37,567 nucleotides of DNA from a virus, in the IMG/VR virus record IMGVR_UViG_3300036944_000898, positions 64,001-101,567 of that record. One strand, written 5' to 3'. Below, piece by piece: positions 19,121-20,058 of this stretch. The notes beneath the pieces were generated by a model. The model had not been told where the DNA came from and did not search any database. It worked only from the letters and a program-made list of their open reading frames with translations. Made by a program: the position numbers and the translations under genes. Positions within the stretch are counted from its first letter, which is position 1. Each line of letters opens with the position of its first letter.

Positions 19121-19228
19121 TATATTGGTAGTTTAGAAGGAGGTTAATCAAAAAGAAATAAATAATTATCTGTGGAACTACTCCCTAGGTGGGATTAAGA
19201 GTGAGGTGTTCGATTCCCTTCAATATAT
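19121..19228 (+). tRNA. tRNA-like gene with enlarged D-loop (anticodon perhaps AGG)
   Basis: The ends make a perfect 7-bp acceptor, TATATTG (19121-19127) with CAATATA (19221-19227). The T-arm is AGGTG-TTCGATT-CCCTT with the canonical TTCGA. AGTT/AACT (19130-19133 with 19176-19179) form a D-stem whose loop is about 42 bases instead of 8-10. An anticodon arm ACTCC-CTAGGTG-GGATT would give AGG (Pro). Total 108 nt against 73-76 normal; no CCA. It is either a tRNA carrying an insertion, a decayed tRNA, or a tRNA mimic. Confidence 0.5.
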
Positions 19229-19554: not shown

Positions 19555-19596
19555 AATAATCTAGTTGACATCTCTAGTAATCAAAAGATGTAATAA

Positions 19597-19972
19597 GGGG
19601 GTGCCTGGTTTTGACATGAATTTGAGAGTAAATATAATAAACAGTCGTGAGAGATATACACGTAAAAACTAAGGTGAATACAAGAAATGACAAGAATACG
19701 ATCGCTCAAACAAGAGCAAACATGCAAGTAGTTCATAACCTTTTAGGTGATGACTCACAAGAAGAAGCTAACTATTTCTCTACTAGTAGAGTTTTAGCTG
19801 CTGCTTAATTTTAAGTTATTTAAGATTTCTTCATTAGATTAAATGAAGTGGTGGAGTACGCTGATTTATCAGTTGTCCTAGTGTAGTTAAACACATAAAT
19901 CTATAACTAAACTGTAATATTTTATTATATTGAAATTGTTTGTGGACGGGAGTTCGATTCTCCCCACCTCCA
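19597..19972 (+). ncRNA. ssrA: tmRNA (transfer-messenger RNA)
   Basis: The 5' end GGGGGTG and 3' CACCTCC-A make a tRNA-like acceptor with a G3-U70 wobble, the signal for alanine charging. The 5' D-region GCCTGGTTTTGACA and the 3' T-arm GGGAG-TTCGATT-CTCCC match tmRNA. Long helix H2 is formed by AATATAATAAA near 19635 and TTTATTATATT near 19920. CGTG/CACG gives pseudoknot PK1. The message part follows (tag ORF 19734-19808). Its product rescues ribosomes stalled on broken mRNAs and tags the stalled protein for degradation. CCA is not encoded. No smpB lies in the window, so it must use the host SmpB unless one lies elsewhere. Confidence 0.93.
19734..19808 (+). other. tmRNA tag-peptide reading frame
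   Basis: The frame ending GTT TTA GCT GCT GCT TAA gives a tag ending VLAAA. Counting back, the best resume codon is CAT at 19734, because it is preceded by TAGTT, matching the U-A-G-U-Y rule of known tmRNAs. The tag would be 24 residues (HNLLGDD..., then EEANYFSTSRVLAAA). A shorter 20-residue version would start at GGT (19746), but without the upstream A at -4. Typical tags are about 8-15 residues and end (Y)ALAA. The codons for FSTSR are an insertion-like palindrome (19778-19791). Confidence 0.7.
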
Positions 19973-19996
19973 CAATTAAAATACTACTAAGTATAA

Positions 19997-20053
19997 ACTA
20001 ATACTTACTATCTGGTAGCTTGGACTCGGATTTCTGAGAGTCAGATTAGTATT
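19997..20053 (+). ncRNA. Small three-way-junction element between tmRNA and tRNA-Glu
   Basis: ACTAAT (19997-20002) pairs with ATTAGT (20045-20050), enclosing TAC/GTA and GACTC/GAGTC (20023-20027 with 20038-20042). Alternatively AATACT pairs with AGTATT followed by TTT, which would act as a terminator for the tmRNA. About 54 nt, tRNA-like in outline but without an anticodon arm. Confidence 0.4.
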
Positions 20054-20058
20054 TTTAA

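Follow-up and report, generated by a model that had tools for sequence, protein, structure and literature searches.

The locus examined here raises the question of whether a crAss-like phage carries a genuine tmRNA and, if so, what that RNA may do during infection. The window, a stretch of 37,567 nucleotides, comprises bases 64001-101567 of a virus record of 101,567 bases (IMGVR_UViG_3300036944_000898). Within it, ARAGORN called a one-piece, standard-form tmRNA (ssrA) of 377 nt at 19597-19973 (+), and the Rfam tmRNA family RF00023 matched 19597-19975 with the whole model covered (81.9 bits, gathering score 47, E 1.8e-30), which places the gene in that family. The initial annotation had proposed a phage tmRNA with an intact tRNA-like half and suggested a covariance-model search; both programs agree with it, and the score lies above threshold rather than below. 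Its start at 19597 stands, while its end at 19972 falls one base short of the ARAGORN call. The elements of the tRNA-like half and helix H2 are as follows.

19597..19973, + strand: one-piece tmRNA (ssrA), 377 nt (ARAGORN; RF00023, 81.9 bits; helix covariation in 11 relatives)
19597..19603, + strand: acceptor stem 5' strand, GGGGGTG, pairing with 19965-19971 and containing G3 of G3-U70 (RF00023; 100% of cells paired; G-U in 11 of 11)
19631..19644, + strand: helix H2 5' strand, pairing with part of 19912-19931 (71-77% of cells paired; 5 doubly changed pairs)
19912..19931, + strand: helix H2 3' strand (covariation count among relatives)
19948..19964, + strand: T-arm, GGGAG-TTCGATT-CTCCC (98% paired; 5 of 5 pairs doubly changed)
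19965..19973, + strand: acceptor stem 3' strand, CACCTCC with U70, then A73 and one C (RF00023; covariation)

The hallmarks named in the initial annotation were all present: the 5' region CTGGTTTTGACA, the T-arm, an A/T-rich H2 and the G3-U70 alanine identity, the last shared by all 11 relatives. The covariation count used alignment A3, which consists of 11 related phage tmRNAs, and a model comprising the acceptor stem, T-stem, H2 and module stem (see below). Under this model 85.8% of cells were paired, both sides had changed in 19 pairs and the covariation score was 0.404, figures reached by none of 500 shuffles. The acceptor stem was fully paired with four doubly changed pairs and every T-stem pair changed on both sides, while H2 was weaker as aligned (about 71% paired; 4 of 10 pairs unpaired in 5-6 of the 11 rows). 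This compensatory pairing shows that selection maintains the gene as a tRNA-like RNA; it is a genuine phage-encoded tmRNA, a chance match being excluded by the covariation. Judged by plain fold energy, the RNA as a whole was ordinary (z -1.04). Since the 3' end reads CCAC-AA, with CCA incompletely encoded, CCA addition after trimming would be needed. A promoter-like match at 19611 was set aside as a consensus match lying inside the gene.

Other possible structures lie nearby. A short A/T-rich hairpin (19560-19596) sits directly 5' of the tmRNA, as it does in several relatives among L083-L093; a tRNA-like fold at 19121-19228, unannotated and with no ARAGORN call, pairs TATATTG with CAATATA around a GTTCGATTC T-loop; and between the tmRNA and tRNA-Glu there may be a three-way-junction RNA (19985-20058) with a T run after it.

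The initial annotation had also placed the genome among the crAss-like phages, and the capsid, portal and terminase bear this out, matching the crAss-type PHROGs phrog_11589, 6547 and 6681 at E 1e-93 or better. A chaperonin in the same genome also matches a crAss-type PHROG, and the capsid shares 63.5% identity with its counterpart in Cellulophaga phage phi14:2 (Crassvirales, Steigviridae). By these protein matches, the genome belongs to Crassvirales, with phi14:2 as its nearest named phage. A search for SmpB that was positive in 10 of 14 control genomes found no such gene in the phage record; host SmpB would, therefore, be needed for any tmRNA function.

The statement in the initial annotation that phage tmRNAs are rare, with none known to it in a crAss-like genome, needs correction. 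RF00023 exceeded its cut-off in 10 of 46 IMG/VR records gathered via the capsid protein; matches below the cut-off were left uncounted because tRNAs occur among them (e.g., the tRNA-like match in L099). Among cultured phages, RF00023 scored 111.2 bits in Lactococcus phage P1048, 58.2 in Flavobacterium phage FpV4 (L119) and 46, just below the cut-off of 47, in phi14:2 (L120), and the tmRNAs of the latter two encode long tags of about 36-38 residues. The human-gut Crassvirales phage cr128_1 (MT774392; L109 1202-1900) carries a tmRNA with the tag GNTYRAAA, whose T-loop is split by a group I intron (RF00028, 86.1 bits), so that RF00023 missed it; by eye, L098 apparently has a similar T-loop insert. 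Permuted tmRNAs occur as well, in L097 (1465-1821; RF04321, 64 bits; tag ANIFAINNAPVRLAA) and in the sister crAss-like phage L096 (1465-2010; tag ANIFAINNEPLRMVA read by eye). The stretches consulted of the phi14:2 and cr128_1 records carry no tmRNA annotation, and, going by titles and abstracts, none of the publications found that pair tmRNA with crAss-like phages or Crassvirales appeared to deal with such a tmRNA. Since phage tmRNAs (402 of 18,146 phages, PMC9004378) and intron-bearing and permuted forms (PMC11915505) are already in the literature, the gene class is not new, and the window gene adds a new example to an established type. What our data add is that trans-translation genes are a recurring component of environmental crAss-like phages.

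Two features of the RNA were absent from the initial annotation, a 39-residue tag and a phage-only RNA module. The tag region reads as follows.

19671..19688, + strand: conserved AAGGTGAAT box and spacer ahead of the resume codon (alignment of relatives)
19689..19808, + strand: tag frame from resume codon GAC to stop TAA, 39 residues, DKNTIAQTRANMQVVHNLLGDDSQEEANYFSTSRVLAAA (44 homologous tags; third-position excess)

ARAGORN reported a tag of 30 residues starting later, at GCA; comparison with relatives, whose tags were read from the conserved AAGGTGAAT box, sets the resume codon at GAC (19689) and yields an unusually long tag of 39 residues. The frame closes VLAAA-stop at 19808, in keeping with the LAA-type end originally described. 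The predicted tag contains peptides such as ANMQVVHNLLGDDSQEEANYFSTSR and matched none of the known phage peptides searched. The 44 distinct homologous tags span 24-44 residues (median 35) and share a conserved ANM..V core and a small C-terminal end, which is AA in 42 and VA in 2, a count that is not a free test because the selection rule demanded an A- or S-containing frame end. Independent support for the frame comes from codon comparison across the 44 tags, where single-base differences number 5178 at position 3, against 1452 at position 1 and 1325 at position 2. This excess is strong in the ANM core and modest before it (809 vs 608 and 651), so the resume codon rests mainly on homology. 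In seven Bacteroidota genomes with a strong match, ARAGORN made four plausible tag calls, all of 8-9 residues (GEYNYALAA, ENNYALAA, GEDSYALAA, GETNYALAA); the remaining three gave no usable tag. The crAss capsid profile matched 13 of 20 tested records, including every ANM-type long-tag phage in the set.

Bacterial tmRNAs carry pseudoknots PK2-PK4 downstream of the tag; four pseudoknots (PK1-PK4) are typical of tmRNA, not obligatory. The middle region of the window gene aligns poorly to RF00023, and there, 3' of the tag stop, sits the module (19824-19877).

19824..19855, + strand: core hairpin of the phage-specific module, GATTT-CTTCA-TTAGATTAAA-TGAAG-TGGTGGA (contig counts; stem covariation; model, 56.4 bits; no Rfam family)
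19856..19877, + strand: second hairpin P2 (CTGATTTATCAG at 19861-19872) and the following TTGTCC (centroid fold; shuffle test)

A 33-base match to Lactococcus phages prompted the search pattern GATTT-N-TTAGATTAAA-N-TGGTGGA. At least 119 viral contigs contain it, compared with none of 84,980 bacterial and archaeal genomes. Because the pattern fixes 22 flanking and loop bases, leaving five outer stem pairs free, the invariance of those bases is partly by construction. Relaxed searches returned few variants. L083 has the loop AAATTA, L418 has TGGTGCA, and the last block varies freely at its seventh position (A 81, T 13, G 7). The seven-pair stem was 100% paired in 26 distinct rows, with 59 cells changed on both sides vs 14.6 expected. 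The downstream hairpin reached shuffle p <= 0.05 in 68% of 54 copies; the window copy is weaker (p 0.11). A DNA cruciform is less likely, as G-U pairs occur in the module stem. The covariance model R1 found one strong copy in the window's own genome (56.4 bits). Of 33 positive records, 32 had a single copy and the remaining one had two. In 395 Bacteroidota genomes R1 gave only four 28-bit matches, about chance level, and matches of the module to 4227 Rfam families were likewise at chance level, with no family fitting.

The module occurs in several contexts. Among 95 distinct copies, 47 lay in ARAGORN tmRNAs, 10 in tmRNA-like 3' halves, 6 before a possibly interrupted T-arm and 15 stood alone before a terminator; the other 17, sorted by eye, were 11 tmRNAs, 2 stand-alone copies and 4 Lactococcus phages with the module between tRNA-Arg and a standard tmRNA. 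Outside tmRNAs it is found at the 3' ends of phage mRNAs, starting at or a few bases from the stop codon in L153, L156, L211, L234 and L223, and in tRNA arrays; L418 has a further copy after tRNA-Ile. No tmRNA scored over the cut-off in 14 records with a stand-alone module, several of which are fragments, and the capsid search detected no crAss capsid in some module-bearing records. A general role as a riboswitch on the next gene is unlikely, the downstream gene being convergent in L156 and L234, and an anti-terminator (GGTGGA with a terminator arm) suits some stand-alone copies, not L156, L193 or L223, by eye. Stand-alone copies in L146, L153, L161, L193, L211 and L223 share a neighbourhood with a thymidylate-synthase-like gene downstream, and several of these loci have a conserved protein of about 90 residues upstream; no named relatives were found for the genes flanking stand-alone copies. 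In L215 (IMGVR_UViG_3300006226_001721), an HNH-like reading frame ends at the module and a tmRNA-like 3' half follows.

CCACCA forms the 3' end of tmRNA and many tRNAs, and the module's TGGTGG is its exact complement; as a lead only, the module may thus bind tRNA tails. An exact seven-base match to the tmRNA end UCCACCA is weakened by the variable seventh base, though six bases still match. Tentatively, with somewhat less than even confidence, we suggest that the module represents a previously undescribed class of RNA restricted to phages, which is kept across unrelated phages with nearly always a single copy in each genome. It would move among tmRNAs, tRNA arrays and the 3' ends of mRNAs, serving as a 3'-end device or acting in trans.

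What the data show is the gene itself with its conserved fold, the conserved tag frame and the module; that the RNA is expressed, charged and active in rescue, what becomes of tagged proteins and what the module may do are inferences. Our data suggest that this crAss-like phage gene probably encodes a working one-piece tmRNA that rescues ribosomes and adds its 39-residue tag via host SmpB. After trimming and CCA addition, G3-U70 would allow the transcript to be charged with alanine, and together with host SmpB it would reach stalled ribosomes, where Ala and the phage tag ending LAAA would be added and the ribosome released. Translation could thereby be kept up while mRNAs are degraded during infection, and the region 3' of the tag, in the place of PK2-PK4, may have been remodelled around the compact two-hairpin module. 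That a phage tmRNA sets ribosome rescue and tagging during infection, as initially predicted, is plausible.

The RNA could instead compete with host tmRNA for SmpB or ribosomes, its tag replacing the host degradation tag (e.g., GETNYALAA) so that host proteolysis of phage proteins is weakened, with no gain in rescue. Phage and Bacteroidota tags do differ strongly in length and end, and a tag-less tmRNA-like gene of mycobacteriophage DS6A resembles a tmRNA-inhibiting RNA (PMC4131195, PMC11915505). The window gene, unlike a pure decoy, retains a conserved reading frame and stop, and most clade tags end in a hydrophobic residue plus AA, typical of degradation tags; we consider this possibility unlikely. 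Equally improbable, in our judgement, is that the tmRNA serves mainly as a stable, abundant carrier of the module, which would act in trans on a host or phage factor with rescue secondary. The near-constant single copy per genome fits such a carrier, as do the copies at mRNA 3' ends in phages with no detected tmRNA and in tRNA arrays, yet several same-clade tmRNAs (e.g., those of L085, L088, L090 and phi14:2) lack the module and retain the long tag, which argues that the tmRNA is kept independently of it. Phages often carry passenger genes and the middle region is remodelled, as might be expected of a captured host ssrA decaying without function, but the compensatory changes, the conserved frame and repeated retention in the clade make decay very improbable.

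The preferred reading, a working phage tmRNA, can be set beside known systems. Like bacterial one-piece tmRNA (RF00023), the 377-nt window gene has a tRNA-like half with G3-U70, a tag frame with stop and H2; it differs in its tag (39 residues vs a commonest bacterial length of 10, PMC11915505) and in a post-tag region built on a phage-only module. Phage-borne ssrA is also known from mycobacteriophages Bxz1 and Wildcat, Bacillus phage G and marine phage Melnitz, and tmRNA occurs in about 2.3% of phage genomes (PMC9004378, PMC4131195). The window gene is set apart from these by its Crassvirales genome and clade-wide long tag, and its one-piece form contrasts with the permuted, two-piece tmRNA of Melnitz. 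Intron-bearing and permuted forms (PMC11915505) both appear in sister crAss-like phages (cr128_1 and apparently L098; L097), whereas the window gene is neither. The tmRNAs of Bacteroidota (Maribacter sp. and Bacteroides fragilis genomes) belong to the same RNA family, and their tag frame starts at a similar position (with Gly in B. fragilis), but their tags have 8-9 residues (e.g., GETNYALAA) vs 39, and R1 module matches there are at chance level only. As the clade's conserved tag is much longer than those of the examined hosts, the function of the long tag becomes testable; the module in cultured Lactococcus phages (P1048 and relatives) and the module-less long-tag tmRNAs of phi14:2 and FpV4 make direct experiments possible.
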